Positions 2,996-20,868 of a DNA stretch of 27,228 nt are shown piece after piece (position 1 is the stretch's first letter; every line of letters starts with the position of its first letter). The notes beneath the pieces were generated by a model. That model made no database searches. It saw nothing but the letters and a program-made list of their open reading frames with translations, and had not been told where the DNA came from. Source of the DNA: a virus. The stretch is from IMG/VR virus record IMGVR_UViG_3300042902_000071, positions 1 to 27,228 of that record. One strand, 5' to 3'. A program made the position numbers and the translations under genes.

Positions 2996-3007
2996 TGTAA
3001 CCAGTAA

Positions 3008-3061
3008 GCCACGGGCAAGGATTCGACACCCGCGCAGCCCTCTCCCTGCGCAGCCCGTGGC
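3008..3061 (+). promoter_or_regulatory. Nested stem-loop between tail tube and tail chaperone genes
   Basis: An outer perfect 9-bp stem pairs GCCACGGGC (3008-3016) with GCCCGTGGC (3053-3061). Inside it a second perfect 6-bp stem pairs GCGCAG (3032-3037) with CTGCGC (3046-3051) around an 8-base loop. No T-run follows, so it does not look like an ordinary intrinsic terminator. Possible roles are an RNA processing or stability element that sets the high tube:chaperone ratio, or a factor-dependent terminator. The structure is seen directly; the role is inference. Confidence 0.6.
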
Positions 3062-3103
3062 CCCTACATACCGGAGAGGAACAACGTTGCGGAGAGGTGA
3101 CGA

Positions 3104-3711: not shown

Positions 3712-3716
3712 GCGCG

Positions 3717-5132: not shown

Positions 5133-5133
5133 C

Positions 5134-5886: not shown

Positions 5887-6194
5887 TGCAGACCATACCC
5901 ATACAGGCGATACCCGCGCAAACCTTGCAAGTCGTGCTAGGTGGTCAGAATTGCCAAATATCCCTACGCCAAAAGTCGCAAGGCGTGTTCGTCGATATCA
6001 GCGTCGAAGACGTCGACGTCGTTGTTAGCGTAATCGCTCGCGACGCCGTGCCGCTAATGTGCCGTGAATACGTCGGGTTCGTCGGGAACATTCTGTTCAT
6101 CGACACACAAGGTTCGGACGACCCGAGTTATGAGGGTATGGGCTCGCGGTTCACTTTGAACTATCTGACGGCGGCCGAAAATGCTCTCATATAG
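5886..6194 (+). CDS. Baseplate plug-like protein (Pam3 gp18-like, 102 aa)
   Basis: This small strand-rich protein has the motif order IPAQTLQVVLGGQNCQISL, then a middle VDISVEDVDVVVSVIARDAVPLM, then GFVGNILFIDTQGSDDPSYEG. This matches the short baseplate plug family known from Pam3-type phages, which closes the end of the tail tube before contraction. Its ATG is at the stop of the Dit-like gene and its own end overlaps the hub gene by 14 bp. The order Dit-plug-hub-spike supports the call. Confidence 0.72.
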   Translation: MQTIPIQAIPAQTLQVVLGGQNCQISLRQKSQGVFVDISVEDVDVVVSVIARDAVPLMCREYVGFVGNILFIDTQGSDDPSYEGMGSRFTLNYLTAAENALI

Positions 6195-7053: not shown

Positions 7054-7759
7054 CGAAGTGCCGACCGGCACCCTCGACCCGTCTAGTACGTGGGGTGAGT
7101 TCAATAACATCATGTTTGCCGTGCAACAGGCGTTAAGCAAGATGCAGACGGCGACGCTTGTGCGAATCGAATCGTGTACCAACGCGGGCGAACTAACCCC
7201 AGTGGGTTACGTTGACGTAACACCTTTGGTCAATCAGCTGGACGGTGCGGGCAATCCGACGCCACATGAAACGATTTACAACGTGCCCTATTTCCGGCTC
7301 CAAGGTGGCGCGAACGGTATCATCATGGACCCAGTCAAGGGGGACGTTGGCATTTGCGTATTCGCAAGCCGCGACATATCCAAAATCAAGACGACGAAAA
7401 AGCAGGGCAACCCGGGCAGTCGACGCCAATATAGTTTTTCCGACGGCATGTATCTCGGCGGGATGCTCAACGGTACGCCCACCCAGTATGTGCAATTCAG
7501 CGCGGCCGGTATTCGCATACACTCGCCGACGCTGGTAAAGCTGGACGCTCCCGATATACAATTGAGTGCGGACACTGTGGAGATTGTGGGCACGACGTCG
7601 ACGACAATCACGACGCCCACTTTCACGGTAAACGGCGCGGCTCAATTTAACGGAACGATTGACGCGACGGGTGAAGTTACCGGCAACGGCATTGCATTGA
7701 GTACGCACGCGCACAGTGGCGTAACGCCTGGCGGAAGTAATACGGGGGGTCCGGTATGA
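7028..7759 (+). CDS. Baseplate spike, Gp138 N-terminal-like, with HxH tip (243 aa)
   Basis: This is the central membrane-piercing spike. The N-terminal part (about residues 25-150) contains VGYVDVTPLVNQLDGAGNPT and PVKGDVGICVFASRDIS, the OB-fold signature of phi92 Gp138-type spikes. The C-terminal part is a repetitive strand-rich stretch (IQLSADTVEIVGTTSTTITTPT) that fits a trimeric beta helix. It ends STHAHSGVTPGG (HAH at 227-229); in known spikes three HxH motifs hold an iron ion near the tip. An AGGGGA ribosome site precedes the ATG at 7028. Iron binding is known for relatives and inferred here. Confidence 0.85.
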   Translation: MASPSSSSNEVPTGTLDPSSTWGEFNNIMFAVQQALSKMQTATLVRIESCTNAGELTPVGYVDVTPLVNQLDGAGNPTPHETIYNVPYFRLQGGANGIIMDPVKGDVGICVFASRDISKIKTTKKQGNPGSRRQYSFSDGMYLGGMLNGTPTQYVQFSAAGIRIHSPTLVKLDAPDIQLSADTVEIVGTTSTTITTPTFTVNGAAQFNGTIDATGEVTGNGIALSTHAHSGVTPGGSNTGGPV

Positions 7760-8115
7760 CCGAATTTAACACCTTGCTTTTGGACCAAACCGAATGGGAT
7801 TTGGTCATCGATAGCGCGGGTAATATCGCGATGGCGTCGCCGCAATACGCCCTCGCGCAAGACGTTGCGAGCGCAGTTCGGCTATTCCTCGGCGAACTTT
7901 GGTACGATACGACAAAGGGCATTCCGTATTTCGAGGACGTGCTAGGACATTTGCCGCCGCTGTCGCTGATGCGGGCTTACATTGAAAATGCAGCGCTCAC
8001 GGTGCCGGGCGTCGTGTCGGCGCGATGTATAATCAGCGCATTCGAGTCTCGGCAGATAGTCGGGCAAGTGGAATTCATAGACGAAACGGGAGCTTCAAAT
8101 AATGTCACTTTCTAG
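7756..8115 (+). CDS. Baseplate wedge protein, gp25/gpW-like (119 aa)
   Basis: This 119-residue protein matches the gp25-like wedge family in size and position (between spike and gpJ). The stretch QDVASAVRLFLGELWYDTTKGIPYFEDVLG resembles the conserved 'I..ai...l.t..gE...d...G..y' core of gp25 proteins. The N-terminal LDQTEWDLVIDSAGNIAMA is common in this subfamily. Gp25-like proteins anchor the first sheath ring to the baseplate. The gene overlaps its neighbours by 4 bp (ATGA) and 14 bp. Confidence 0.82.
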   Translation: MTEFNTLLLDQTEWDLVIDSAGNIAMASPQYALAQDVASAVRLFLGELWYDTTKGIPYFEDVLGHLPPLSLMRAYIENAALTVPGVVSARCIISAFESRQIVGQVEFIDETGASNNVTF

Positions 8116-9319
8116 CGTACCGAGTTTGCAATTCACGGCAGCGGGCCTAGTGGTGCCGTCTGAGGCTGACATTCTCGCCGGTGTTCAAAGTGACATGGAT
8201 GCGGCATTTGGCGGTGGATTAAATCCGTCGTTGGAAACTCCGCAAGGTCAGCTCGCCTCGAGTCAAGCCGCAGTCATCGGCGATAAAAATAACGAAATCG
8301 CTTATGTGGTCAACCAGGTCGACCCGCGATATTCTGACGGTCGCTTTCAAGACGCCATCGGGCGCATTTACTTTCTGACACGTAAGCCGGCCATTGCGAC
8401 CACGGTGCAAGCCACGCTGACCGGCTTGGCTGGGACGGTCGTACCTGCAGGTACATTGGCGCAGGATACGTCGGGCAACACTTACGCCAGCACGGGCGAC
8501 GCGACAATCGGCGTCGGCGGCACTGTGGTCACCGAGTTCCAAAATATCGTCACTGGGCCGATTGCATGTGCCGCCGGCACCCTTACCTCAGTCTATCAAG
8601 CCGTCGCAGGCTGGGACGCCATCACGAACGTCGCAGCGGGCGTCTTGGGGTCGGTAGTGGAAAGCCGCGCCGACTTTGAGTATCGACGCGAGAGTTCGGT
8701 CGCAATCAACGCCGTCGGCTCGCTCGACTCAATTTATGCCGAAGTGTTCAATTTGCCCGACGTGCTGGACGTCTACGCGCTCGAAAATCCGAGCAATGCT
8801 GTCGTCAACGTGGGCGCGACTAACTACCCGATGGCTCCACACTCGCTTTACGTCGCGGTCGTGGGTGGCGTGGATGCTGATATCGCCGAAGCGATTTGGC
8901 GCAAAAAAGACCTCGGGTGTGACTACAACGGAAACACGACCGTCACCGTGACCGATACGGCCGGCTACAGCTACCCCGCGCCGAGCTATGACGTCAAGTT
9001 CGAGCGCCCGACCGCCGTACCGATAAAGTTCGACGTGCAATTGGTCAACGACCCGTCGCTACCCTCGAACATTTTGGAGCTGGTGCAAGCTGCAGTCATC
9101 GCCCAATTCACCGGCACCAACGCTAACGCATCGCGCGAGCGTATCGGTTCGCGCATCTTGTCGAGCCGATATTACGGGCCTGTCGCGGCAATCTCGCCGA
9201 ACGTGTCACTTATCGAAATCATGCTCGGGTCAGTCACGCCAACGCTGACTCAGTTACTCATGGGCATCGATGAACAACCGACCATTGACGCCGCTGATAT
9301 TGGTATCACGCTGATATGA
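8102..9319 (+). CDS. Baseplate J-like wedge protein (405 aa)
   Basis: This 405-residue protein is homologous in layout to P2 gpJ and Mu gp47. An N-terminal region (AAFGGGLNPSLETPQGQLASSQA, about residues 36-58) is the classic start of baseplate J proteins, followed by an Ile/Val/Gly-rich insertion (about 100-165), the ESRADFEYRRESSVAINAVGSLDSIYAEV core and a C-terminal domain. It forms the arms of the wedge around the hub. It overlaps the next gene by 4 bp. Confidence 0.9.
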   Translation: MSLSSVPSLQFTAAGLVVPSEADILAGVQSDMDAAFGGGLNPSLETPQGQLASSQAAVIGDKNNEIAYVVNQVDPRYSDGRFQDAIGRIYFLTRKPAIATTVQATLTGLAGTVVPAGTLAQDTSGNTYASTGDATIGVGGTVVTEFQNIVTGPIACAAGTLTSVYQAVAGWDAITNVAAGVLGSVVESRADFEYRRESSVAINAVGSLDSIYAEVFNLPDVLDVYALENPSNAVVNVGATNYPMAPHSLYVAVVGGVDADIAEAIWRKKDLGCDYNGNTTVTVTDTAGYSYPAPSYDVKFERPTAVPIKFDVQLVNDPSLPSNILELVQAAVIAQFTGTNANASRERIGSRILSSRYYGPVAAISPNVSLIEIMLGSVTPTLTQLLMGIDEQPTIDAADIGITLI

Positions 9320-9984
9320 TAAATGTCGAACGCACGATAATCAGCCAATACGGCAATAGCGCGACAATCACACAGTTGATTCGCGATATGAACGATTACG
9401 TCGACCCACGCGCGGATTTTGACGCGTTCTTTAATTTCGTCTGGAATGTGGAAACTGCCCAAGGCTTCGGGCTTGATATTTGGGGGCGCATTGTCGGTAT
9501 CGGTCGCGAGCTGAACATTGGCGACGTGACTCAGCGTTTCGGATTTGAAGAGGCGTTGCCAGGCTCATACCCGTTTGACGAAGCCCCCTTTTACGATAGT
9601 TCGCCGTCAGCGTCGAACACCTACGCGCTGAGTGACGACGCATATCGCAAGCTGATTTTGATTAAGGCCCTCGCCAACATTTCGGCGATGAACGCCAGCT
9701 CATTAAACCAGCTTGTCAAAAATCTATTCGTCGACCGCGGCCGCGCATATGTAAATGACTTGGGGGCAATGCAGCTTCGATACACATTCGAGTTCTTGCT
9801 AACGCCCGTCGAATTTGCGATTATGACGCAATCGGGAGCCGTACCGCGACCGGCCGGCGTGAAGGCATTTTTTATCAACACAGTGACACCAGTTTTCGGA
9901 TTTAGCGAGGCTGGTGTAGAATCCGCTTCACCATTCGGGCAAGCCCCGTTCATACAGGAAGGTGCCACAAATGTTATTACTTGA
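9316..9984 (+). CDS. Baseplate wedge / DUF2612 protein (222 aa, gpI-like)
   Basis: This 222-residue protein shows the DUF2612 pattern: NVETAQGFGLDIWGRIVGIGR near residue 50, then FGFEEALPGSYPFDEAPFY, and later LSDDAYRKLILIKALANIS. The family is the counterpart of P2 gpI and joins baseplate arms to tail fibres. Close to the C-terminus the phrase VFGFSEAGVESASPFGQAPF repeats the earlier FGFEEA...PFDEAPF theme, which is normal for this family. The gene overlaps the fibre gene start by 14 bp. Confidence 0.87.
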   Translation: MINVERTIISQYGNSATITQLIRDMNDYVDPRADFDAFFNFVWNVETAQGFGLDIWGRIVGIGRELNIGDVTQRFGFEEALPGSYPFDEAPFYDSSPSASNTYALSDDAYRKLILIKALANISAMNASSLNQLVKNLFVDRGRAYVNDLGAMQLRYTFEFLLTPVEFAIMTQSGAVPRPAGVKAFFINTVTPVFGFSEAGVESASPFGQAPFIQEGATNVIT

Positions 9985-11392
9985 CGCTCCCGACAAACTG
10001 GTACTGCCGTTCGCTGACGGTGGTGGTCGCAACGCGATACCCGCAGCCTCGCAAATCGGCATCACGCCCGGCGCGGCCTCGCTCGAAGACGGCTTCCCGC
10101 CTCTCACTCGAACACCACTGGCGGGCGGCGGCGTGCCCCCTTCCGGCTTGGACATGAACGGCATTCTGTTTGAAATGTCCGCCGTGATTCGCTGGGCAAA
10201 CGCCGGCGGTGGCTACCCTTACGACACGACATTTGCAAACGACGCCAACGTCGGCGGTTACCCCAAGGGCGCGCGAGTGCTGCGGTCCGACGGCCTCGGT
10301 TACTGGTTTAACACGGTCGACGACAATGTGACCGACCCCGAGAGTGCCGGCGCCGTTGCTGCCGGATGGGTGCCTGACTTTGCATATGGTGCCGCAGCAA
10401 TTGCGATGACCAGTGCGAATGTGACGCTGACCGAATTGGAATACGGCAAACCTGTCATTGTCATCACCGGGTTATTGACTGCGAACTTGAATTTGATTTT
10501 CCCCGATATCATCGGCGAGTGGCTGATATTCAACGGGACGACCGGAGCATTCAACATTACCGCAAAAACTTCCGGCGGCACTGGTGTTCCGATAAATGAT
10601 ACCGCGCAGAAAATCGCATGCAACGGTGTGAACGTCTATTCACCGTCAAGCTACGCCCCGTCGGTCGTTGGCTCCCATTCAAATCTCAAAGCGTCGGCCG
10701 ATGGTGTGTCGGCGAATGTCAGCGTGTCGGCCGACGAAATAATCGTCGAGAGCTCGGACAACGCCTATCAAACTTTGCGCAACGTGGCGCTAACGATTGC
10801 CGGCACTGCCGTCGGCGTGAACGGCATTGACGCGGGTGCGATTGGTGCAAACACATGGTACGCCTTGTGGGTGATTTGGAACGGCACGACCGTCGCCGGG
10901 CTCATGTCATTAAGCGCGACCGCTCCGACACTGCCTGCCGGATATACACATAAGGCGCGCGTCGGATGGATTCGCACGGACGGTACCGGTAACGCATATC
11001 CGTTGTCATTTAAACAGGTCGGGGCGAGCGTGCAGTACGTTGTCACCACGGGTTCCAACGTCCCGTATTATCCAATCATGGCTTCCGGTGTACTTGGGGA
11101 CGCAACAATACCTACTTTTTCCGCAGTGCCGTGGGCTGCATTTCTACCGCCTACGGCAGTTAGAGGCCGATTTGTAGCAACGAATGGCGGTGGAGTGGGC
11201 GGGATTACACTCAGCCCAAGCAATAATTTCGGAAATCTAGCGACCTTAAATACGGCTCCCCCTCTTATCTCCTACCCGGCTGGATATGGGGCGCAGGATG
11301 CTGATTGGGTATTAGAGGGGGTGAACATTTACTACACAGGGACGGTCACCTCTAACATGGTGCAGGCAACGGGATGGGAGGACTCATTATGA
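9971..11392 (+). CDS. Tail fibre protein (473 aa)
   Basis: This is the host-recognition fibre. The ATG at 9971 is preferred over the GTG at 9962 because AGGAAGG, ending at 9962, sits 8 bases before it. The N-terminal 120 residues (LPFADGGGRNAIPAASQIG, DGFPPLTRTPLAGGG, PPSGLDMNGILFEMSAVIRW, VGGYPKGARV) form the baseplate-attachment domain found in many phages of Burkholderia and relatives. The middle is a beta-rich shaft. From about 11080 the codon choice changes (more AAT, GAT, GGA, AGA, fewer TCG), suggesting that the receptor-binding tip was acquired separately. The gene ends in an ATGA overlap with its likely assembly chaperone. Confidence 0.86.
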   Translation: MLLLDAPDKLVLPFADGGGRNAIPAASQIGITPGAASLEDGFPPLTRTPLAGGGVPPSGLDMNGILFEMSAVIRWANAGGGYPYDTTFANDANVGGYPKGARVLRSDGLGYWFNTVDDNVTDPESAGAVAAGWVPDFAYGAAAIAMTSANVTLTELEYGKPVIVITGLLTANLNLIFPDIIGEWLIFNGTTGAFNITAKTSGGTGVPINDTAQKIACNGVNVYSPSSYAPSVVGSHSNLKASADGVSANVSVSADEIIVESSDNAYQTLRNVALTIAGTAVGVNGIDAGAIGANTWYALWVIWNGTTVAGLMSLSATAPTLPAGYTHKARVGWIRTDGTGNAYPLSFKQVGASVQYVVTTGSNVPYYPIMASGVLGDATIPTFSAVPWAAFLPPTAVRGRFVATNGGGVGGITLSPSNNFGNLATLNTAPPLISYPAGYGAQDADWVLEGVNIYYTGTVTSNMVQATGWEDSL

Positions 11393-11682
11393 GCTATGCA
11401 GTAAAGAAAGACGGAACAGGCTTTCGTGCGGTGTTGTCTGAAAATGATATCGATGCAGTGACGGAAGTATTTTCACAAACTCCGCCTACATTGCAATATG
11501 GGGAGGCAACCGTTCGCAGCGCGCGTGACCGTTTAATTGCGGCGTCAGACTGGACACAACTACCCGACGCCCCACTGACCACGACACAGAAAGCCGCTTG
11601 GAAAACATACAGGCAAGCGCTGCGGGACGTCACTGCGCAAGCGGGGTTTCCTGACAATGTGACCTGGCCGAAGGTGCCGTAA
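11389..11682 (+). CDS. Tail fibre assembly chaperone, Phage_tail_APC-like (97 aa)
   Basis: The ATG at 11389 follows GGGAGG by 7 bases and overlaps the fibre stop; a longer frame starting at 11374 lacks such a site. The C-terminal half (TTTQKAAWKTYRQALRDVT, then GFPDNVTWPKVP) is the hallmark of the Phage_tail_APC family, small proteins that help tail fibres fold or assemble and travel with the fibre gene. Base and codon use match the altered fibre tip rather than the upstream tail genes, so tip and chaperone probably moved together. Confidence 0.85.
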   Translation: MSYAVKKDGTGFRAVLSENDIDAVTEVFSQTPPTLQYGEATVRSARDRLIAASDWTQLPDAPLTTTQKAAWKTYRQALRDVTAQAGFPDNVTWPKVP

Positions 11683-12053
11683 TGGAACCGTGGATACTGA
11701 CAACTTTCATCGGCGTCGCTTTTTCAATAATCGGCTGGCTTCTCGCGAACAAGGATAAAAAACAAAGCGAGGAAATAAAAGCCGAATCGGTATCGCGCAA
11801 AGAGGATGACGACGCAATTGAAACAAATGTCGACTTACTGTTCAAACTTTACCACGAGCTCGAAAAAGATTTGTCAGCGTTCAAGCTCGAGATAGCCAAA
11901 AACCACTACCCGAAACATGAGCTCGACCAACGTTTCGCCGAACTGAACTTATCGATAAAAGAGGGTTTCGGGGCGTTAAGTGGCGAGCTCAAGGAAATGA
12001 ATAAATCTTTGCACAATCACTTCGACAAGCATCACTCGGGAGGTCAACAATGA
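11682..12053 (+). CDS. Membrane-anchored coiled-coil protein of the lysis cassette (123 aa)
   Basis: The N-terminus has one membrane segment (about residues 3-19, WILTTFIGVAFSIIGWLL), followed by a Lys/Glu-rich helix with heptad-like spacing (about 22-105) and a His-rich end (HNHFDKHHSGGQQ). It lies directly before the holin, overlapping by 4 bp. It could be a second holin or antiholin, an XhlA-like lysis helper, or an inner-membrane spanin. The basic residues just after the membrane segment (NKDKK) favour a cytoplasmic coiled coil, which argues against a spanin. I do not recognise a precise family. Confidence 0.75.
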   Translation: MEPWILTTFIGVAFSIIGWLLANKDKKQSEEIKAESVSRKEDDDAIETNVDLLFKLYHELEKDLSAFKLEIAKNHYPKHELDQRFAELNLSIKEGFGALSGELKEMNKSLHNHFDKHHSGGQQ

Positions 12054-12514
12054 GCGCTCTACTATCTTTCCTCGGCGGCTCCGTGTTTCGCATGCTATGG
12101 GGCGAAGTCTCGGCGTACTTCACGCGCAAGCAGGAACACGAACAGGAACTTGCGCGCATCACGGCCCAGGAAGTCATTGACGCCGCGCAGCACACTCGCA
12201 ACCTCGAGTCGATAAATCTGCAAGCCACCCTCGGCGTGAAGACCATACAGGTGCAGGCTGACGCGGATATGGCTCGAATCGACGCTGCGGCATGGGCAGA
12301 CGCGGTGCGCGATGTTGGCAAGCAGACCGGCATTAAGTTCATCGATATTTGGAACGGCATCATCAGGCCGTCGCTGGCCACGTTGGCGTGCGCGTTTTTG
12401 ATTGCGGAAGCCGTCCACAATGGAATGAACCCGACGCCGCATATCATCATGGTATGCGATGCGATTTTGGGCATCTATATTGCCGAACGTTCGTTGGGCA
12501 AGCGTGGCAAATGA
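12050..12514 (+). CDS. Holin, GTA_holin_3TM-like (154 aa)
   Basis: This is the probable holin, which opens the inner membrane at lysis. A hydrophobic N-terminal segment (about 3-17), a charged coiled-coil stretch (about 25-98) and two C-terminal membrane segments (about 105-121 and 129-145) follow one another; a basic tail (RSLGKRGK) ends it. This layout, including the W..IIRP start of the second hydrophobic part, resembles holins with three membrane segments. The gene overlaps the endolysin start (ATGA), as holin-endolysin pairs often do. Confidence 0.8.
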   Translation: MSALLSFLGGSVFRMLWGEVSAYFTRKQEHEQELARITAQEVIDAAQHTRNLESINLQATLGVKTIQVQADADMARIDAAAWADAVRDVGKQTGIKFIDIWNGIIRPSLATLACAFLIAEAVHNGMNPTPHIIMVCDAILGIYIAERSLGKRGK

Positions 12515-12960
12515 ATATCCCGCTCGCAGTGGAAGTGTCCGCATCACTCGCGCGTCGCTGGGAAGGGTGCTATTTGACGCCCTACCTTTGCCCAGCGGGC
12601 GTTCCGACCATAGGCTACGGCGCGACCTATTATGAGACTGGCGAGCGCGTGACGCTGCCTGATGCGCCCATAACCAAAGAGCGAGCCGAACGGTTGCTTG
12701 TGTGGATGGTCGCAGGTCGATATCTGCCGGCGGTCCTGAGACTGTGCCCGCATATCGATACGCCCGACCGCCTCGCGGCAATCATCGACTTCACGTTCAA
12801 CCTTGGTGCCGGTGCGCTAAAGGTCAGCACGCTACGCAAGCGAATCAACGCGGGCCGCTGGTCCGATGTACCCTATCAGCTGATGCGATGGAACAAAGCC
12901 GGCGGTCGCGTGCTGCGGGGGCTCACCTTACGCCGGAAGTCCGAAGCTGCGCTATGTTGA
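12511..12960 (+). CDS. Endolysin, GH24 phage lysozyme (149 aa)
   Basis: This muramidase cuts peptidoglycan glycan strands. The ATG at 12511 overlaps the holin stop; the frame is open upstream but only inside the holin gene. The active-site region WEGCYLTPYLCPAGVPTIGYG carries Glu18 and Thr33 with the same spacing as Glu11 and Thr26 of T4 lysozyme. The residue in the Asp20 position is Cys27. FNLGAGAL and RRKSEAALC are further family marks. There is no signal peptide or SAR segment, so export depends on the holin. The last 38 bp overlap a gene on the other strand. Confidence 0.92.
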   Translation: MNIPLAVEVSASLARRWEGCYLTPYLCPAGVPTIGYGATYYETGERVTLPDAPITKERAERLLVWMVAGRYLPAVLRLCPHIDTPDRLAAIIDFTFNLGAGALKVSTLRKRINAGRWSDVPYQLMRWNKAGGRVLRGLTLRRKSEAALC

Positions 12961-13096
12961 TATCGCAGTCGGTATAATCTCGACCGACAATTCGCGGCCC
13001 TTCGCTGGCTTCTTCACAATACGAAGCGTGCGTGTCCTGGTAATCCATGTGTGATGCTGCAGCGAACAACGCTAGAAGTGCAAAAAGTATTTTCAC
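12923..13096 (-). CDS. Small predicted secreted protein (57 aa)
   Basis: A GTG at 13096 (overlapping the upstream stop as GTGA, with AAGGGG upstream) opens a 57-residue frame ending at 12923. The N-terminus (MKILFALLALFAAASH) is a plausible signal peptide of about 15 residues with an Ala-rich cleavage region; the mature part is short and acidic, with two cysteines (Cys27, Cys44) that could pair. There is no lipobox. The frame overlaps the endolysin gene end to end by 38 bp. The function is unknown; a periplasmic effector or an unusual lysis accessory is possible. The main support is translational coupling and the signal peptide. Confidence 0.55.
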   Translation of the reverse strand: MKILFALLALFAAASHMDYQDTHASYCEEASEGPRIVGRDYTDCDINIAQLRTSGVR

Positions 13097-13305
13097 GACT
13101 TTACCCCTTTCATATATTCCAAAAATAGTTCCCTGCCACGTTTGGCTCCCGCCTCGACATGCTCGACCATTGTGTCAGCTGGTGCGGGTGACGCTTCGCC
13201 GCATGTCGGCGGGTCGGGGTCGTTCACGTCCCACGCCAGCGCGCACTTACCGCAACACATTTGGTCACCGTATTGCCGAGCGTGACAATCGCGACGGCCG
13301 GCCAT
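13093..13305 (-). CDS. Small Cys-rich, probable zinc-binding protein (70 aa)
   Basis: This 70-residue protein starts at an ATG 6 bases after GGGGAGG. It has Cys7, Cys17, Cys18, Cys21 and Cys35, arranged around the phrase CCGKCALAWDVNDPDPPTC. Very similar short 'C..C...WD..DPDPP.C' phrases occur in many small phage proteins of unknown role, and a zinc site is likely. The C-terminal half is helical. The start lies 1 base after the preceding stop and the end overlaps the next gene, so it belongs to a four-gene minus-strand cluster. Confidence 0.75.
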   Translation of the reverse strand: MAGRRDCHARQYGDQMCCGKCALAWDVNDPDPPTCGEASPAPADTMVEHVEAGAKRGRELFLEYMKGVKS

Positions 13306-13306
13306 G

Positions 13307-13492
13307 TCACACCTCCCCAGTAAACCACGGCTCCCGATAGTCCGGCGACTTCTTCCACGCCTTGTACCACGGTGCCATATAGATTGCGGAACGCGTCAGG
13401 CCAACTTGCTTGGCTGCGGCGTATGGCGTTTTGCCAATGGTCAGCACTAGCACTTTAGCGACGCCCATTTCGGCGGATTCTTTAGCGGCCAT
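13307..13492 (-). CDS. Small helix-turn-helix protein (61 aa)
   Basis: The ATG at 13492 has GAGGTG 4 bases upstream and overlaps the previous gene by 11 bp. The longer frame from 13612 would cover most of that gene and is rejected. The segment TPYAAAKQVGLTRSAIYMAP (about residues 21-40) has the A..QVGL..SAIY pattern of a helix-turn-helix that contacts DNA. At 61 residues it is small enough to be a Cro-like regulator or a DNA-binding accessory. Since the cluster promoter carries a palindrome, self-regulation by this protein is a reasonable guess, but it is not shown. Confidence 0.68.
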   Translation of the reverse strand: MAAKESAEMGVAKVLVLTIGKTPYAAAKQVGLTRSAIYMAPWYKAWKKSPDYREPWFTGEV

Positions 13493-13841
13493 TTGGCACC
13501 TCGACTTCAAAGATTGACTCGAGGTGTTCGGTAATCGCAGTGCCGTGACCGCTATCGCCCTCGTAGTCAGTAATCGCGATGCCGGACAAAGTGACGGCAA
13601 ACTTTTCGCCACTGCCGCGGTCGGTCAGTTTCGTGCCGACCGGATATGTTTTCAATTGCATTTTGTTCCCCGTTATTAGATTGCAGTATTCTTCCCATTC
13701 AGCGTCGGTCATTGAAGCGTCGCCAGTCGTCGGCGTTGCGAGTTGGCAGCCGTTTTCCTCGCGAGTGTGGGCGATGATGCGCCCGCTCGACAATTTTATG
13801 TAAGCGCGCGGCGGTTGTTGGTTAGCTTTGAAGTCAGACAT
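13482..13841 (-). CDS. Protein of unknown function (119 aa)
   Basis: This 119-residue acidic protein is the first gene of a small cluster, with a strong ribosome site (AGGAG, 6 bases before ATG). The first half has SSGRIIAHTREENGCQL and a TDAEWEEYCNLI helix; the second half (KTYPVGTKLTDRGSGEKFAVTLSGIAITDYEG) looks like an SH3-like or small beta-barrel fold. I do not recognise a family. It follows the DNA polymerase gene but has its own promoter overlapping the polymerase stop codon. Confidence 0.75.
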   Translation of the reverse strand: MSDFKANQQPPRAYIKLSSGRIIAHTREENGCQLATPTTGDASMTDAEWEEYCNLITGNKMQLKTYPVGTKLTDRGSGEKFAVTLSGIAITDYEGDSGHGTAITEHLESIFEVEVPNGR

Positions 13842-13846
13842 TTCGT

Positions 13847-13856
13847 TCTCCTAGTT
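13847..13856 (-). promoter_or_regulatory. Conserved translation-initiation leader, copy 1
   Basis: The minus strand reads AACTAGGAGA here, with the AGGAG core 6 bases before the ATG at 13841. The same 10 bases precede two other genes on this strand (17747-17756 and 19807-19816). Confidence 0.6.
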
Positions 13857-13873
13857 ATTTATTCGACGCACTC

Positions 13874-13902
13874 AGTATAGGCAAATAATTTACCTATGTC
13901 AA
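13874..13902 (-). promoter_or_regulatory. Strong sigma70-like promoter for the 13841-12923 gene cluster
   Basis: On the minus strand TTGACA (13902-13897) and TATACT (13879-13874) are separated by 17 bases, close to consensus. The -35 box falls within the last two codons of the polymerase gene. Transcription would start near 13867 and give a leader of about 26 bases before the ATG at 13841. Confidence 0.75.
13877..13897. promoter_or_regulatory. 21-bp near-perfect palindrome in the promoter spacer (candidate operator)
   Basis: The plus strand reads ATAGGCAAAT-A-ATTTACCTAT. Ten of the positions on each side pair except one (13882 with 13892). It fills the space between -35 and -10 and reaches into both boxes, so a bound dimer would exclude RNA polymerase. 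The palindrome is seen directly; the operator role is inference. Confidence 0.62.
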
Positions 13903-15918
13903 CACATAATAACCGACGTCGCGCAACATGCTTTCAGCCTTGTCGATGTACCACTGATAATCGATATCGTCGGGCAGGTCGTCGGGTAGCGTCATGCACG
14001 GGCGGGAGCCATAGGAAAGGCTGACGGTGTTGCCGTTGCTGGCGTAGACGATAGGCCCAGGTGAGCGCGTGCCGTAGTACCAGCGCACGACCTTGCCCAA
14101 GTATTCCGGCACTTGAGGCTCGAAGCATGTGTGATACGCCGTGCGCGGGTCGGTCAGCATGTCACCCAGGCGCCACTTGCGACCCTCTTTCACCCAGCCG
14201 TTCGCGGTGAGTGTGCCCACCATGTCCATGACGCGAGCATCTTTGCGCGGACCTTCACCCCACATTTTCACGCCACCACCGTTGACCTTTTGGATGGTGA
14301 CGAATTTGCGAATGTCTCGGCATGCCGAAATGGTGTATTCAAACGGGATACCTTTGGCCAGGAAGTCCGACACGGCATCGGCGCAAATCTCGACGTCGGG
14401 GTTTTTCTTCTCTACCAAACCGCCTTTGCCATACTCACCCTTGCGCTTCACGTCGTCGGGCGTTTTGATTGCAAAATAGTTATTGACGTCGCGCGCATAG
14501 ATGGCCAAATAATCGTCGGTTTCCATTTCCAAGCCGGTGCGCTTCTCCCATTCGGCTATCAGATACTCGGACGTTGCGAGCTTGTCGCGCGGGCACTTGA
14601 TGACGATGCCGTCGGTGTTCGCCGATATGACCGGTATGGCGTAATGATGGTGCCACTCAATCAGCATCAGCAACGACAGCTGACCGGTCAACGTGGTTTG
14701 GATAAGCATGGCTGGCGCGAATAGCACGCTGAACGGGCTACCGGTCTTGCCGAACGTTCCGTTAATCATAATCTTGCCGCCACCGTCGCCGGTCTTCGCG
14801 TCTTCATATTCGACGGTGCCGATAAATCCGGCCTTTTCGAGCTTCTTCGCGAGCGCTTTGCACAACAGGCGTTCGTCTTTAATGTCGCGGAATTCTTCGA
14901 GGAACTGCGGACCCAGCGCCGGCGGCCACTCTCCCGAATTGAGAATCAAGCTCGGGTAGTAACTGGCCACGTCCGGCATGCGGACCTGATGCGTTTCGTC
15001 GCTGATGGCGACTAGCTTCTTTTCCTGCGAGTGCAGGCCGCCGATACCCATTTTATAGGTCGACGTGCCGATGGTGATTTCGAGCCCTTCAAGCTGGTGC
15101 GGCATTTCAACGCGACCGGTCGGACCCAATCGAAAGACCGACTCGCGCACCAGCTCGAGCGCGCGTTGCAGCCGCGGCGTGCTGTATGAAATGAAATCCG
15201 GCACCTTGTAGCGGAACGCCAAATTCCAGTCGATGTCGGGTTTATAGATGCGATGACCCAACGCCTTCTCGCATCGATGCTTTAGCACGGCCTCGGCGAC
15301 TTGGGCGTCGGATTTGCTGCGCAGGTCCAGCCCGTAGCGCTCGCCCAACGCCTCACGCTGTCGCAGCTGCGGAGCCAGCGCGTCGAACAATTCTTCGAGT
15401 ACGTCAAGGTCGTTTTCGCAATACGTGTCGACTTCCACAATCTCAGGCTCGGTCAGATAGTGTGCAGGGTCATACGGCAAGTCCTGCATTTTTTTGCAAT
15501 GGATGCGGCCGGCGTATTGCTTTTGACTGCCCGCACCTGGCGCGACTTCCATTATGTCGATGTGGTCGGCAGGCTTCCAATCAGGCAACCCGAGTTCCCA
15601 CGGCTTGCGCTTCTCGACAATTATTTGGTCGTTGAGCCATTTCAATTGCTCGCACGTGTAGCCCGCGAGCGCTGCGGTAATCATCGGCACGTCGTAATAA
15701 TTGCCGTTGAAGCTGACCGAACAATAGGCGTCGAACAAAAGCCGGATACGCGCGGCCTCGCTTGGCTCGAACGATTGCCCAGCGCGGAGCCGGAACGCAT
15801 ACGCGACGCCGTTGCGCGGTCGGAATTTGAGCAACCAGTAGTTCGGGAAACACTCCGTGTCATAGAACGCACGCGGGGGCGTCCCGGCTACTGGTGGCGG
15901 TGGTGCTAGGTGAGTCAT
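13894..15918 (-). CDS. DNA polymerase, family B, with 3'-5' exonuclease (674 aa)
   Basis: This is the replicative polymerase. The ATG at 15918 overlaps the upstream stop (TGATG); a TTG 3 bases earlier is less likely. Exonuclease motifs are ExoI Asp20-x-Glu22, ExoII NGNYYD (71-76) and ExoIII YCEND (166-170). Polymerase motifs are A, DVASYYPS (316-323), B, KIMINGTFGK (382-391), and C, ANTDG (433-437). In motif C the usual Asp-Thr-Asp is Asn-Thr-Asp, so one metal ligand is changed. At 674 residues it is compact for family B. It is next to a MazG-like gene and near DUF2815/DUF2800 genes, a common phage replication set. Confidence 0.92.
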   Translation of the reverse strand: MTHLAPPPPVAGTPPRAFYDTECFPNYWLLKFRPRNGVAYAFRLRAGQSFEPSEAARIRLLFDAYCSVSFNGNYYDVPMITAALAGYTCEQLKWLNDQIIVEKRKPWELGLPDWKPADHIDIMEVAPGAGSQKQYAGRIHCKKMQDLPYDPAHYLTEPEIVEVDTYCENDLDVLEELFDALAPQLRQREALGERYGLDLRSKSDAQVAEAVLKHRCEKALGHRIYKPDIDWNLAFRYKVPDFISYSTPRLQRALELVRESVFRLGPTGRVEMPHQLEGLEITIGTSTYKMGIGGLHSQEKKLVAISDETHQVRMPDVASYYPSLILNSGEWPPALGPQFLEEFRDIKDERLLCKALAKKLEKAGFIGTVEYEDAKTGDGGGKIMINGTFGKTGSPFSVLFAPAMLIQTTLTGQLSLLMLIEWHHHYAIPVISANTDGIVIKCPRDKLATSEYLIAEWEKRTGLEMETDDYLAIYARDVNNYFAIKTPDDVKRKGEYGKGGLVEKKNPDVEICADAVSDFLAKGIPFEYTISACRDIRKFVTIQKVNGGGVKMWGEGPRKDARVMDMVGTLTANGWVKEGRKWRLGDMLTDPRTAYHTCFEPQVPEYLGKVVRWYYGTRSPGPIVYASNGNTVSLSYGSRPCMTLPDDLPDDIDYQWYIDKAESMLRDVGYYVLT

Positions 15919-16313
15919 CAATACTTCTTACCGTCATCAAGACGGCGATTCTCGGGCTTGTGGTCAGGACGCGTGGCATTGAACGCCAGCTTCTCGACAA
16001 TCGCGCCGCCGAGGTCAAGCCCCAACGCACCAGCGAGGTCGGCGATACGAATGACGGCGTCGGCCAATTCAACCTCAACCATCGGGCGATGCGGCAGTTT
16101 GTCGTCCATCAGATTTTTGCGGTGACCTTCCATCGCTTCGGACACTTCCGATACGACCAACATCAGCTTTTCGCCGACCACATGGGGGCGTGCGATGACC
16201 GGTTCGCCAGTCTCAAGGTCGTTCCACCAGCCAGCGTCGGTCGACGCCTTGTGGCAGCTTACGACTAGATTCTCAACGCCAATGCGCAAATTCTGTTTGA
16301 CTAAAGGGTGCAT
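15918..16313 (-). CDS. MazG-like nucleotide pyrophosphohydrolase (131 aa)
   Basis: It likely hydrolyses nucleoside triphosphates (NTP or dNTP to NMP plus pyrophosphate) and so cleans or adjusts the nucleotide pool during phage replication. The single MazG-type helical domain shows Glu56, Glu59 and Glu62 (SEVSEAME) followed by Glu82 and Asp85 (VELADAVIRIADLAG), the E..E...E..D metal-binding arrangement. The 131-residue size fits phage versions. A GGAGAG site lies 5 bases before the ATG. It is translationally coupled to the polymerase gene and separated from the upstream gene by a terminator. Confidence 0.82.
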   Translation of the reverse strand: MHPLVKQNLRIGVENLVVSCHKASTDAGWWNDLETGEPVIARPHVVGEKLMLVVSEVSEAMEGHRKNLMDDKLPHRPMVEVELADAVIRIADLAGALGLDLGGAIVEKLAFNATRPDHKPENRRLDDGKKY

Positions 16314-16324
16314 GTTTTCTCTCC

Positions 16325-16355
16325 AAAGAAAAAGCCCCGCGATGCGCTGCGGGGC
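16325..16355 (-). terminator. Intrinsic terminator inside the minus-strand operon
   Basis: Read on the minus strand, GCCCCGC (16355-16349) pairs with GCGGGGC (16340-16334) around an 8-base loop, followed by TTTTTCTTT. It lies just after the DUF2815-like gene and before the MazG-like gene, so it would lower expression of the MazG-polymerase pair relative to upstream genes. Confidence 0.85.
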
Positions 16356-16365
16356 CGTAGTTACG

Positions 16366-17403
16366 TTAAGCCAACATCAGCCCGTTTTGTACCAACATCG
16401 CGTCGGTCCAGCCTTGCGCGATGTAAGCCTCATACGCGATACCATTTGCGGCCGCCGTCATCTTGCTGACTGGTGCCGCTGGTGCCGCTGGTGCCGCTGG
16501 TGCAGCTGGTGCCGCTGGTGCCGCTGGTACTTGCAGGAAGCCCGCGTTAGGGACGACTGGTATGGCAGGCGCAGCCGGCGCAGGGGCGGGTGGCGTCGGC
16601 ACAGAACCAGCGGGCGCCAAAGGGGCAGGTACACCCGGTACGCTAGGAATGCCGGCAGGCGCCACATAGCCCATCGCGGGCGCTGGCATACCCGCGACCG
16701 CAGGGGCATACCCTGGAACCGGGACGGCTGCCGGCACGCCAGCGGGGGCCGCTTGTGGCAAAGGGATTGCGCCCGCTGGCGGTGTCATGCTCGCACCGGC
16801 TGGCAATGGTGCCTGACCAAAGCCCGCACTGGCCACGTCAGGGCCGAAAGTAATTTCCTGACCGTAGGCGCGGAAGCAAACCATGCTGTGATTGATATAA
16901 ACGCCCGGTTGTTGCGCGGAGCCGTTACCGTCGACCGAGCCCGCCACTTCGACAAAATAGCCAGGCTTGCAGAAGTCGGCTTGCGTGACTTGCACGTAAC
17001 CTTGGCCTTCTTGTTGGTACACCTTCGGCGCAAAACCGCCCGAGAATTTGACGACCCAACAACCCGCAAAACCTTCGGTTTCGGAATTCTTACGACCGTT
17101 TTTGTTCGGGATTTGACTGTCACCGTCTTCGATTTTCCAAGCGAAAGACGGGCTCTGCGCGATGTTCGGGAACGCTTGGTTACCGATGGTCCAAATCTGT
17201 GCACCCCAAGGCGTTTGGCCCCAGTGAGTTTCGCCAGGATTCTTCGGAATTGCCAGCGCGAAAAAGTAATTCGAGCGAGGCTGGCCCGCGTTAGGTCCAT
17301 GCTTGGTGACCAGCGGTTTACCTTCGGCGTCCGTCGTGTTCGGGTTATACAGCGAGCCCATGACGATGCGACCGACGGGGAATGTGATATTCGTTTTTGC
17401 CAT
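16366..17403 (-). CDS. Putative ssDNA-binding protein, DUF2815-like, with long Ala/Pro tail (345 aa)
   Basis: The ATG at 17403 comes just after the preceding stop; the upstream extension of the frame lies inside another gene. Residues 1-190 form a strand-rich domain (GRIVMGSLYNPN, NYFFALAIPKN, GYFVEVAGSVDGNG, YINHSMVCFRAYG) that I compare with DUF2815 / OB-fold single-strand DNA-binding proteins. Residues 195-312 are a long linker rich in Pro, Ala and Gly, including six APA-type repeats. The last 30 residues (YEAYIAQGWTDAMLVQNG) form a short conserved-looking helix that may bind partners, as acidic tips of SSBs do. The position between Cas4-like nuclease and polymerase fits. Confidence 0.68.
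   Translation of the reverse strand: MAKTNITFPVGRIVMGSLYNPNTTDAEGKPLVTKHGPNAGQPRSNYFFALAIPKNPGETHWGQTPWGAQIWTIGNQAFPNIAQSPSFAWKIEDGDSQIPNKNGRKNSETEGFAGCWVVKFSGGFAPKVYQQEGQGYVQVTQADFCKPGYFVEVAGSVDGNGSAQQPGVYINHSMVCFRAYGQEITFGPDVASAGFGQAPLPAGASMTPPAGAIPLPQAAPAGVPAAVPVPGYAPAVAGMPAPAMGYVAPAGIPSVPGVPAPLAPAGSVPTPPAPAPAAPAIPVVPNAGFLQVPAAPAAPAAPAAPAAPAAPVSKMTAAANGIAYEAYIAQGWTDAMLVQNGLMLA
16472..16525 (-). repeat. 9-bp tandem repeat, six copies
   Basis: The plus strand carries six copies of GGTGCCGCT, one with a single change (GGTGCAGCT at 16499-16507). They encode the (Ala-Pro-Ala) repeats in the linker of the DUF2815-like protein. All copies keep the frame, so slippage would lengthen or shorten the linker by whole triplets. 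Confidence 0.9.
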
Positions 17404-17404
17404 G

Positions 17405-17740
17405 TTAGTTACCACCTTTCTTCGGAGCGTGTTCGGGATATTCCGCGTAATACACGGATTCGGGTGTTTGCTCGCCGCGACCTTCGAGCCAGCCGTCACG
17501 GTCGGCTACAGCTTTCAAATTGTCGTGATGCTTGGCTACCGACTGCAGCTCGGCGTAAAAGTCGTCGTCGTTCAATACTGGCGGCTTCGCATCTACGACC
17601 TTTCCATAAAATGCGGGGAAGTGACCGCGCACCTTCTCTTCGTCGCCCTCGGCAAACCACTTGAGGAACATTTCAGCCTCAGTTTTGTCGGTCAGACTGT
17701 CGGCGAATTTTTCTGCATCAGCTTTCGTTTTCTTTACCAT
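17405..17740 (-). CDS. Small acidic protein of unknown function (111 aa)
   Basis: The ATG at 17740 is chosen because AGGAG lies 7 bases upstream; a longer frame to 17782 enters the previous gene. The 111-residue protein is rich in Lys, Glu and Asp and mostly helical in the first 55 residues (KADAEKFADSLTDKTEAEMFLKWFAEG), with a less ordered C-terminus (ESVYYAEYPEHAPKKGGN). It lies between the DUF2800 nuclease and the DUF2815-like gene, so a role in DNA replication or recombination is likely. No family was recognised. Confidence 0.75.
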   Translation of the reverse strand: MVKKTKADAEKFADSLTDKTEAEMFLKWFAEGDEEKVRGHFPAFYGKVVDAKPPVLNDDDFYAELQSVAKHHDNLKAVADRDGWLEGRGEQTPESVYYAEYPEHAPKKGGN

Positions 17741-17746
17741 GATGAA

Positions 17747-17756
17747 TCTCCTAGTT
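17747..17756 (-). promoter_or_regulatory. Conserved translation-initiation leader, copy 2
   Basis: AACTAGGAGA on the minus strand before the ATG at 17740. Its TAG is also the stop codon of the upstream DUF2800 gene. Confidence 0.6.
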
Positions 17757-18884
17757 CGTTGTGCCAAATACGCGTCGCGCATCGGCGGGATTATCGGGAA
17801 CCAACTTTACTGACCCCAATGGTGTAACACTGTACGCGCTAATGACGGCTTCGTCAACACCGATTTTTATCGCTTGTTTCGGAGTCTTGACGCCGGGCTT
17901 TGATAAGTCGACGCCCATGAGCTCGCCGATAGACAAAACCTGTTCGACTGGGACCGCCCACTGTTGCCGACCGTAACCTTGTTCGACGCGGTGGAACGGT
18001 ACGGCTTGACCTTGTCGCACGTAAGCGGTCACACATTCCCGCAGCCCCTCGACCCGTGATTGCAGTCGCTCCAATGAACGTTCCATCATTTTCAATTCGA
18101 GGCTCGCGGCGGCCGGCGGTAACTCTACGGGCGACGATTGCACTGCGAATTCGGCGTCGCTGTATGCACCCTTTTGCAAGGCTGGGCACGCATGTCGACC
18201 TGAGCAATCGACGCACTCCGAATTCGTGGTCGCCGTGGGATTCTCGGCAAGCCCCGCGATAGCTGCAGCGTTTAGCCGATTGACGTGCGCGCGCAAATCA
18301 CTCGCCATCACCGACCACGTGCGGACGGGCGCCCCTTTGTAAAAGCATCGGGGCTGTATGACTGTAAAGTGCACGCGGACGGATTGGTCAATGACACCTA
18401 TCGATTGCTCAAATTGGTCCGCGATTCGTTCCAATATGCCGACGGTGTAAATGATTCCCTGTTCGTTTTCGTATTCATCAACGAAGCGGTGCCCGAATTT
18501 GTAGTCGAATACGTGGAGCTCCCGTTGGTCCAAATTGAACGCCCAAATGTCGGGCGTACCCCAGCACTTTTCGTGCACGCACTGGGCGGCAATCGGCGTT
18601 TCGACATATAGCAATTCGGTCGTTGGCATGGCGCCCACTGTCTCGACAACCAGCTCGCTGCCGTCAATCATTTCCTCGGTGACATAGATGCCATTCGGGG
18701 CTTGCATGCCGACGGTGACCACTCGACCCTCGAGCATTTCGGCAAACACCCAATGCGCGGCGGTGCCTTCCATACTCTCGGGCGTGTCGGGCTTCGGGTA
18801 GAGCCTGTTCATCGTCACCCACATGGCGCAACGACTCCAAGCCTTCGCGCCCGACGGTGGCAAGATTGAGTGTGCGCCGCTCAT
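17751..18884 (-). CDS. DUF2800 PD-(D/E)XK nuclease, Cas4/RecB-like with Fe-S cysteines (377 aa)
   Basis: This is a probable single-strand or recombination exonuclease. Nuclease motifs are MEGTAAHWVFAE (38-49, with His44), GTPDIW (109-114, Asp112) and FDYKFG (126-131, Asp127 and Lys129), the D...D-x-K layout of RecB-family nucleases. Cys19, Cys224, Cys227 and Cys233 (one near the N-terminus, three clustered) match the cysteine set that holds a 4Fe-4S cluster in Cas4 and AddB-type enzymes. In many phages DUF2800 is next to DUF2815 and a DNA polymerase, as here. The C-terminus is an extra helical region of unknown role. Confidence 0.87.
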   Translation of the reverse strand: MSGAHSILPPSGAKAWSRCAMWVTMNRLYPKPDTPESMEGTAAHWVFAEMLEGRVVTVGMQAPNGIYVTEEMIDGSELVVETVGAMPTTELLYVETPIAAQCVHEKCWGTPDIWAFNLDQRELHVFDYKFGHRFVDEYENEQGIIYTVGILERIADQFEQSIGVIDQSVRVHFTVIQPRCFYKGAPVRTWSVMASDLRAHVNRLNAAAIAGLAENPTATTNSECVDCSGRHACPALQKGAYSDAEFAVQSSPVELPPAAASLELKMMERSLERLQSRVEGLRECVTAYVRQGQAVPFHRVEQGYGRQQWAVPVEQVLSIGELMGVDLSKPGVKTPKQAIKIGVDEAVISAYSVTPLGSVKLVPDNPADARRVFGTTN

Positions 18885-19798
18885 TATCGGGCCGCAATCA
18901 ACGCGTCGATATTGCGAGCGACTGCCTCGACCAAGTCCAAACGATTCGCCAGCAACGGCAACGCGTGAACGGCTCCACCGGTCGCATCACTACAGCACTG
19001 CGCGACTTCCGCTTGCGTGACCTTGTTGGCCTGCATCGCAGCCGACGTGCGCCCAATCAACGCGACGTAATGTTGGCGCGCGTCCGCGTTGGGTGCAGCT
19101 GGTGGCGTTGGTGCAGCTGGTGGCGTTGGTGCAGCTGGTGGCATCGGCGTCGACGCGGTGGCACTAGGGAACGGCCATTGCGGTTCGACCGGTGCTGTAG
19201 GTGCTGCACCCATAAGCTGACGCAATTCGGCCTCGACCGTCGTCACCAATGCGGCGTCAACCCTCGGCTTTTTGCGCCATGTACCATCGGCGATTTTAGC
19301 CTTGCTGCCGGCATGTATGCGCGCATCCCACGGCAGACCCTTGGTGTCGAGCTCAACGCTTGGCGCAGGGGTCGTGGGGGCCGCAGGTGCCGTCGGGGCA
19401 GTGGCCGTGGGTGCGGTCGGCGCAGGCGGTACGGGGGCGGTCGGCGGTGTCGAAGTAGCCAGCGGCGCCGCGGGGGCAGTCGGCAACGGAGCGGCACCCG
19501 CAGTGGATGGGGCAGCGGTCGCCCCCGGAACTAAAGGGGTGAACGACCCTGGGCCAAAAGCCAACACCGCGGCGTCCAATTCGTGCGAAGGTATCGCCGA
19601 GCCGGCATGCACGCCGAAAGCGGCTTCGGGCAATGTCGATGTGTGGTCGTGGTCCAGTTGCTCGAGTTCACGCGTGGACGTGTCCACTTTGCCGCAAGTG
19701 CCGGCGCACGACTTGGCTGGATATGCGAGGATGAAGCCTGCGACGGCTTCACGTTGTTTTTGGTCAAGACCTGATGGGTCAACGGTAATTTGCATCAT
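18884..19798 (-). CDS. Ala/Pro-rich protein with 'WDARIHAGSKAK' motif (304 aa)
   Basis: This is the first gene of the minus-strand replication operon. The first 55 residues contain two cysteines (CAGTCG). A long Pro/Thr/Ala-rich linker (about 85-145) follows, then a short conserved block LPWDARIHAGSKAKIADGTW (about 153-172) seen in many phage proteins of unknown role, a second Ala/Pro linker encoded by 18-bp repeats, and a helical C-terminal domain (about 240-304). The layout (small domains joined by flexible linkers) suggests a scaffold that brings replication proteins together. The first ATG fits AGGAG, 9 bases upstream. Function not established. Confidence 0.78.
   Translation of the reverse strand: MMQITVDPSGLDQKQREAVAGFILAYPAKSCAGTCGKVDTSTRELEQLDHDHTSTLPEAAFGVHAGSAIPSHELDAAVLAFGPGSFTPLVPGATAAPSTAGAAPLPTAPAAPLATSTPPTAPVPPAPTAPTATAPTAPAAPTTPAPSVELDTKGLPWDARIHAGSKAKIADGTWRKKPRVDAALVTTVEAELRQLMGAAPTAPVEPQWPFPSATASTPMPPAAPTPPAAPTPPAAPNADARQHYVALIGRTSAAMQANKVTQAEVAQCCSDATGGAVHALPLLANRLDLVEAVARNIDALIAAR
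19092..19144 (-). repeat. 18-bp tandem repeat, just under three copies
   Basis: GGTGCAGCT alternates with GGTGGCGTT from 19092; the third copy decays after 19136. It encodes a Pro-Pro-Ala-Ala-type linker in the 304-aa protein. Its half-unit GGTGCAGCT is the same as one copy in the 16472-16525 array. Confidence 0.85.
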
Positions 19799-19806
19799 TT
19801 CGATAT

Positions 19807-19816
19807 TCTCCTAGTT
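19807..19816 (-). promoter_or_regulatory. Conserved translation-initiation leader, copy 3
   Basis: AACTAGGAGA on the minus strand, upstream of the ATG at 19798; identical to the sites at 17747 and 13847. Confidence 0.6.
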
Positions 19817-19826
19817 GAAATAAAAA

Positions 19827-19855
19827 TTGACTGCGGTGCCAATTGTACCGATAAT
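19827..19855 (+). promoter_or_regulatory. Rightward sigma70-like promoter
   Basis: TTGACT (19827-19832) and GATAAT (19850-19855) with a 17-base spacer. A start near 19862 gives a leader of about 26 bases to the methyltransferase ATG at 19888. It overlaps a leftward promoter on the same DNA. Confidence 0.65.
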
Positions 19856-19869
19856 GACGCATCCGTCAA
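19842..19869 (-). promoter_or_regulatory. Leftward sigma70-like promoter of the replication operon
   Basis: On the minus strand TTGACG (19869-19864) and TACAAT (19847-19842) are 16 bases apart. Transcription would start near 19835, 37 bases before the ATG at 19798. Both promoter footprints cover the same 40 bp, so RNA polymerase could use only one at a time. Confidence 0.65.
19855..19868. promoter_or_regulatory. Inverted repeat across both divergent promoters (candidate operator)
   Basis: TGACG (19855-19859) and CGTCA (19864-19868) form a perfect 5-bp inverted repeat with a 4-base centre. It includes most of the leftward -35 box and abuts the rightward -10 box. A near copy (TGACG-4-CGTCAATAA) lies at 24958-24975. 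Confidence 0.5.
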
Positions 19870-19887
19870 TAACAATTTAACGAGACT

Positions 19888-20868
19888 ATGCAAATCTTTA
19901 AGAACAACAATGTTGCAAGCATCATGGTTGGCGATTGCCTGCAGTCAATATCCACAATGCCCGACAGGTCGATAAATTGCTGCGTCACGTCACCCCCTTA
20001 CTACGGGCTTCGCGACTACGGGCACGCTGGTCAAATCGGACTAGAAGAGTCACCCGAAATCTATATTGCGAAATTGGTCGAGGTGTTTCGAGAAGTCCGC
20101 CGCACGCTAACTGACGACGGGACACTGTGGCTAAATATCGGGGATAGTTACGCAAGTTTTCGCGATGGTAAAGCGACACCTGACACCACGCGGGGGGATG
20201 ACACCGGCACCGCCGTGCCCAAAGGGTCGGCGCGAAATCGAAGCGCATCGACATTTAGCGGCTCGAGTGTGAAACACAAAGACCTCATCGGCATCCCCTG
20301 GATGCTCGCGTTTGCACTTCGCGCTGACGGTTGGTATCTGCGTCAAGATATCATTTGGAACAAGCCGAACCCTATGCCCGAAAGCGTGCGCGACCGCTGC
20401 ACTAAATCGCATGAATATATTTTTCTACTGAGCAAATCCCCGAAGTACCATTTCGACGGTGCGGCGATTAAAGAAAAGGCGGTCGGTGGTAGCAAGGGCG
20501 CATCGGCGTCATTTAAGCGGACGGGAAGCAAACGCGGCGTTGCTGACGTGTGCCCTGCGAGCCCCATGCCGACGCACCGCGAAAATCGACCTGACGTTAA
20601 GTATGACGGCGACACTCGCAACCGACGCTCAGTGTGGAATGTGGCGACGCGACCATATAAGGGTGCGCATTTCGCAGTATTCCCTCAGGAACTTATTGAG
20701 CCTTGCATTTTGGCGGGTTGCCCTGCTGACGGTGTAGTGTTGGACCCGTTCGGGGGTAGCGGGACGACCGCCGGGGTGGCGTTGAAACTTGGACGAAACG
20801 CCGTGATTTGCGAATTGAACCCGGATTACTTACCCCTCATGCCGGATAGAATTGAGTCTATAAAATGA
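19888..20868 (+). CDS. DNA methyltransferase, beta class, N4-cytosine/N6-adenine type (326 aa)
   Basis: The catalytic motif TSPPYYGLRDYG (34-45) comes before the AdoMet-binding motif DPFGGSGTTAG (286-296), the order that defines the beta class. SPPY favours N4-cytosine but does not prove it. The middle (about 95-240) carries a variable Ser/Arg/Lys-rich target-recognition region. No restriction endonuclease was seen beside it, so it is probably an orphan enzyme protecting phage DNA from host restriction. The ribosome site before the ATG is weak. It overlaps the helicase gene by 4 bp. Confidence 0.9.
   Translation: MQIFKNNNVASIMVGDCLQSISTMPDRSINCCVTSPPYYGLRDYGHAGQIGLEESPEIYIAKLVEVFREVRRTLTDDGTLWLNIGDSYASFRDGKATPDTTRGDDTGTAVPKGSARNRSASTFSGSSVKHKDLIGIPWMLAFALRADGWYLRQDIIWNKPNPMPESVRDRCTKSHEYIFLLSKSPKYHFDGAAIKEKAVGGSKGASASFKRTGSKRGVADVCPASPMPTHRENRPDVKYDGDTRNRRSVWNVATRPYKGAHFAVFPQELIEPCILAGCPADGVVLDPFGGSGTTAGVALKLGRNAVICELNPDYLPLMPDRIESIK

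Follow-up and report, generated by a model that had tools for sequence, protein, structure and literature searches.

In phage phiC31, conserved inverted repeats serve as dispersed repressor sites, and in T4-type phages a repeated early-promoter cassette, the PeSL (promoter early stem-loop), precedes small variable genes. PeSL cassettes are mentioned in PMC4503421. The dispersed repressor sites of temperate mycobacteriophages, known as stoperators (PMC6550527, PMC9283540), are asymmetric (PMC9283540). At acr-aca promoters, an inverted repeat lies in the core promoter and a small helix-turn-helix (HTH) Aca autorepressor is encoded downstream, together with variable small genes (PMC9410906). Lastly, the paper on phages phiPLPE and CP-T1 noted 'tetR-like' genes and left their role open, and it described no promoters, motifs or palindromes (PMC3391216).

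Here we describe the P-box element, a putative repeated repressor-operator promoter of freshwater phages, starting from a window of 27,228 nucleotides (the whole stretch of DNA analysed; positions 1 to 27,228 of IMG/VR record IMGVR_UViG_3300042902_000071). Like acr-aca promoters, the P-box has an inverted repeat set within the core (-35/-10) of a strong promoter, a small HTH gene downstream on the same strand (24 of 24 loci) and variable small genes preceding the regulator gene, but it is repeated at 4–7 dispersed promoters and no anti-CRISPR or other anti-defence gene was recognised in the system. The resemblance noted here is one of architecture, and for the 61-aa HTH protein (HTH61) membership of an Aca family is not claimed. 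With stoperators and the phiC31 sites it would share the plan of one phage protein acting at many genomic sites with a specificity that varies between relatives; unlike stoperators, P-box sites are symmetric and promoter-internal, and a search of 12 relatives turned up neither an integrase nor a resolvase. As with PeSL, a repeated early-promoter cassette stands ahead of small variable genes, whereas the inverted repeat of the P-box is placed between -35 and -10, as a putative operator. The link to phiPLPE and CP-T1 is a homologous 103-aa TetR-like protein.

A palindrome within a near-consensus promoter

The DNA polymerase gene of the window (13894–15921, minus strand; PHROG 1252, E = 1.7e-179) ends inside a 21-bp palindrome, ATAGGCAAATAATTTACCTAT (13877–13897, no strand assigned), identified by direct reading, scanning and comparison. 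Nine of its 10 arm positions are paired, and the polymerase stop codon TAG (13896–13894) lies within it. Read directly, the minus strand is TTGACA-TAGGTAAATTATTTGCC-TATACT: the -35 hexamer TTGACA (13897–13902) doubles as the final two sense codons of the polymerase (TTG ACA, Leu-Thr) and is separated by a 17-bp spacer from the -10 hexamer TATACT (13874–13879). A promoter scan gave this sigma-70 promoter (13902–13874) 11 of 12 consensus matches and ranked it as the top promoter-like site of positions 1–20,000. The preliminary description, which had placed a near-consensus promoter at the polymerase stop, embedded in the last codons and with its TTGACA/TATACT gap filled by a palindrome unpaired at one position only, is upheld on each of these points.

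In shuffled windows, 21-mers with at least 9/10 pairs occurred at a mean of 1.07 per window, and 42 of 60 shuffles contained one or more. Since the palindrome alone is at chance level (about one per window), independent evidence is needed, and the case is carried by the coincidence with the promoter and by conservation. Another 21-mer that pairs at 9/10 or better, CGCATATCATCATGGTATGCG (12438–12458), is intragenic and chance-expected. The window is a 27-kb fragment with a single P-box, as no further copy was found in it at up to three mismatches.

A transcript start near 13867 would give a short leader, an RBS-like AGGAG (13848–13852, minus strand, by direct reading) and then an ATG at 13841, which opens a 119-aa gene. 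This first gene of the unit (13482–13841) has no assigned family and had no match in PADLOC, Pfam or PHROGs. It is followed, also on the minus strand, by the gene for HTH61 (13307–13492), the proposed ligand and autorepressor, a 70-aa gene (13093–13305; PHROG 8641, function unknown) and a closing 57-aa ORF (12923–13096; weak match to PHROG 6168).

Conservation and dispersal in relatives

Among 41 loci with polymerase homologues in IMG/VR, ~27 carry TTGACR-TAGRTAAATWATTTAYC-TATAMT or close variants at the polymerase stop, with TAGRTAAATWATTTAYCTA as the core; these relatives are uncultured. The genes behind the element differ among them, and a few sequences have an alternative polymerase end (TTG ACA GGC GCT AAA TAA), yet retain the core TAAATAATTTATC. 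Conservation of the palindrome in homologous phages despite drift in the coding part, put forward as a check in the preliminary description, is borne out by ~27 polymerase-stop copies with varying downstream genes. The polymerase-stop element is missing where the polymerase is only ~60% identical or less, and in relatives G005, G008 and G009. One relative is contained in a contig of an Azonexus MAG.

A search of seven long relatives with a 19-bp consensus, allowing up to four mismatches, returned 4–7 P-box sites in each (G002, 6; G003, 7; G004, 4; G006, 7; G011, 5; G013, 5; G015, 4), compared with a chance expectation of 0.0–0.2 (about 0.1) per relative. A few of the four-mismatch matches fall in coding sequence; nearly all of the remainder lie between a -35 and a -10, usually ~55–60 nt upstream of a small ORF. 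Near-consensus hexamers at the expected spacing are found in the window and in relatives, and the symmetric site overlapping the core promoter is conserved beyond chance. Over all fetched sequence, we counted 44 distinct P-box promoters, followed by 69 different first ORFs, most of them 30–220 aa long; these include a clamp/processivity-like protein, a ParB-like protein and a protein with pentapeptide repeats evident from its sequence; PADLOC found no known anti-defence genes behind P-boxes. A scan for the strict element recovered 35 stretches in viral contigs and, in 84,980 bacterial genomes, one match, on a phage contig that encodes homologues of genes found in these phages. We rejected a host regulon because this single match is to a phage contig.

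Many P-box promoters (L043–L062) share a leader, CATCAAC or CGTCAAC, just past the -10, together with an ACCGGAG Shine-Dalgarno sequence. Some P-box promoters (L046:620, L049:1349 and L043:11743) are immediately preceded by an intrinsic terminator (GCCCGC..GCGGGCTTTTT), which makes these arrangements terminator–promoter–small-gene cassettes. P-box-less relatives (L066–L071, from G008 and G009, as well as L125 and L130) have a different repeated promoter at the same places, for example GTATTGCGTTATTTGATTTCGTGTTGCATAATT, the core of which is common to six places in G009 and the character of which is direct-repeat, not palindromic. The CATCAAC/CGTCAAC leader is also present in the direct-repeat promoters of G008 and G009.

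Where the P-box has diverged, its two arms have changed together: as TATGTAAATAATTGACATA at four promoters of G006, and as TAGGTTAAAAATTAACCTA and TGGGTTAGTAATTAACCTA in L009. Across 26 distinct 19-mers, 196 of 234 arm cells in paired columns are Watson-Crick, a level reached in 19 of 2,000 shuffles (mean 189.7, s.d. 2.4). Compensatory cells show a weaker excess (level reached in 127 of 2,000 shuffles), and paired-column covariation in the arms is accordingly modest.

Two candidate regulators and a second operator class

The HTH61 gene is present in 24 loci, all of which (24/24) have the polymerase-stop element, with the gene downstream on the same strand at a distance of 0.2–1.7 kb. It was not found in site-less relatives with flanks long enough to judge, and G005, G008 and G009 have neither gene nor site; absence from site-less lineages could stem from shared ancestry. 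HTH61 is the sole recognisable DNA-binding protein found with a matching pattern. It has weak matches to HTH_3 and HTH_23, an AF2 model of mean pLDDT 81, no clear family, generic structural matches and no match to an Aca model in NCBIfam. A KorA-like identity was considered, as KorA and operator complexes stood high in a Foldseek list (E = 0.37), and is not claimed, because many unrelated HTH folds ranked equally and KorA was not among the best 50 matches listed.

The 103-aa protein (25014–25325, plus strand) matched TetR proteins of the PDB in a profile comparison (best E = 3.4e-7) and Pfam TetR_N at E = 0.0019, under the curated cut-off. Together with its AF2 model (pLDDT 90), these matches establish a TetR_N DNA-binding fold; the model has six helices only, with no large C-terminal ligand or dimer domain, indicating a truncated TetR-type protein. 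The presence of its gene does not depend on the P-box, as relatives of either kind carry it.

A different palindrome, TTGACG-N4-CGTCAA (T-box), with its left arm serving as the -35, is found at four promoters of the window, none of the sites being assigned a strand. The T-box TTGACGACCCCGTCAA (24957–24972), which is outside the P-box system, lies 57 nt ahead of the TetR-like gene; TTGACGGAACCGTCAA (22570–22585) falls within the final codons of the helicase gene, with a -10-like CATACT 18 bp on; ATGACGCATCCGTCAA (19854–19869) lies in the gap between two divergent promoters, one for the polymerase side and one for the helicase side; and ATGACGGCTTCGTCAA (17842–17857) belongs to a minus-strand promoter within the gene at 17751–18884 and is found at the same place in relatives. 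Within 150 nt upstream of the TetR-like gene, T-boxes of at least 10/12 were present in 28 of 44 phages compared with 5.8% of random windows, and exact T-boxes in 10 of 44 compared with 0.7%. The phages with an upstream T-box include that of the window and P-box-less phages, and the T-box is, on this pattern, a second putative operator class conserved across a wider phage group.

Sites of the form TTGAC-N6-GTCAA are enriched in Vibrio phage CP-T1 (L167; 13 sites compared with 1.1 expected) and Acinetobacter phage Scuro (L166; 7 compared with 0.6). Five of the seven Scuro sites are of a TATTGACA-N4-TGTCA-type variant, one of them directly before its TetR gene. As CP-T1 has been called temperate without known lysogeny genes, the TetR-like regulator could be its missing immunity repressor.

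Assignment of the P-box and alternative readings

The preliminary description had named both proteins as possible binders of the palindrome, with the 61-aa protein as a plausible autoregulator. A TetR-like ligand was favoured at first because its helix varies between lineages: the gene is in every full relative, its DNA-binding helix differs among lineages with different repeated promoters, and TetR proteins do bind palindromes of P-box size. It was dropped once the T-box turned up upstream of the TetR-like gene; the 103-aa protein more likely uses that palindrome, found upstream of its own gene in most of the 44 phages. Relative G006 is altered in both regulators and so does not discriminate between them. 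L009 does: its operator and the recognition helix of HTH61 (ITKSAIYQAG instead of LTRSAIYMAP) are altered, but its TetR-like helix (CAEALISRYF) and T-box are canonical. L011, with an altered HTH61 helix (LTAASIYMAP) and a canonical operator, does not obey a simple helix code. On this evidence, we consider HTH61 a fairly probable P-box ligand and the TetR-like protein an unlikely one. Autoregulation by the 61-aa protein gains plausibility from its co-occurrence with the site and from the position of its gene, always downstream.

HTH61 and the TetR-like protein are the only regulators recognised here, and the conserved cluster also encodes small orphan proteins with the same phyletic distribution. 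The binder might instead be a host regulator, or a further phage protein whose DNA-binding capacity escaped recognition. We regard this as improbable: HTH61 alone is recognisable as DNA-binding with a matching pattern, and the strict element occurred in bacterial genomes only in the one phage contig. The palindrome could also be incidental or structural, within a mobile promoter cassette that recombination maintains in the manner of T4 PeSL, its sequence identity enabling small-gene shuffling. The terminator–promoter–small-ORF cassettes, the near-identical 5' leaders and the 69 distinct first ORFs fit such shuffling, which is compatible with a repressor operator, but promoter copying leaves the symmetric two-arm change in G006 and L009 unexplained, and as a replacement for an operator this reading has little probability. 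Least probable is an RNA hairpin or terminator ending the polymerase transcript. A 9-bp stem of -7.5 kcal/mol is predicted, but its z-score is only -1.0, no U run follows it and most other P-box copies, still between -35 and -10, are away from a polymerase end; this candidate was rejected. An operator controlling lysogeny was rejected likewise, and early shut-off preferred to it, because neither tyrosine integrase nor resolvase families were found in the 12 relatives.

Proposed mechanism

We consider it reasonably probable, from sequence comparison, that the P-box is an operator placed over a strong host-type early promoter and bound by a dimeric HTH repressor of the phage, most likely HTH61. 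Promoter, palindrome, conservation, multi-copy dispersal in relatives, linked arm change and co-occurrence with the 61-aa gene are direct observations. On phage entry, host RNA polymerase would fire the near-consensus P-box promoters; in the window, the minus-strand promoter starting at ~13867 would drive the small-gene unit from 13841 to ~12923. HTH61, a product of the same unit, would accumulate and bind the P-box as a dimer across the -35 to -10 region, blocking access of host RNA polymerase to both hexamers. All P-box units, including the dispersed small-gene units, would then show an early burst followed by shut-off through negative feedback. The steps that we infer are binding, dimerization, an early timing and an effect that is repressing, not activating. 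The element, in up to seven copies per relative, thereby probably lets the 61-aa protein silence small genes after an early burst. So read, the P-box system would belong to a known kind, the phage early promoter with an autorepression operator, in this case one with a multi-copy regulon of unusual clarity.

More tentatively, these phages, which have no recognisable lysogeny genes, may possess a two-tier early network. One tier would be the TetR-type protein acting through T-boxes on replication operons and on its own gene; the other would be the Aca-like HTH61 acting through P-boxes on 4–7 dispersed and rapidly exchanged small-gene cassettes, with a specificity that diverges between lineages, so that phages whose specificities match could exchange cassettes.

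Dozens of small genes of unknown function, probably among the first expressed, are marked by this promoter-operator signature of 25 bp, which offers a handle on early host-takeover genes in uncultured phages. Binding sites are predicted for two regulators, HTH61 and the TetR-type protein, and for the latter a role is proposed where the CP-T1/phiPLPE literature gave none.
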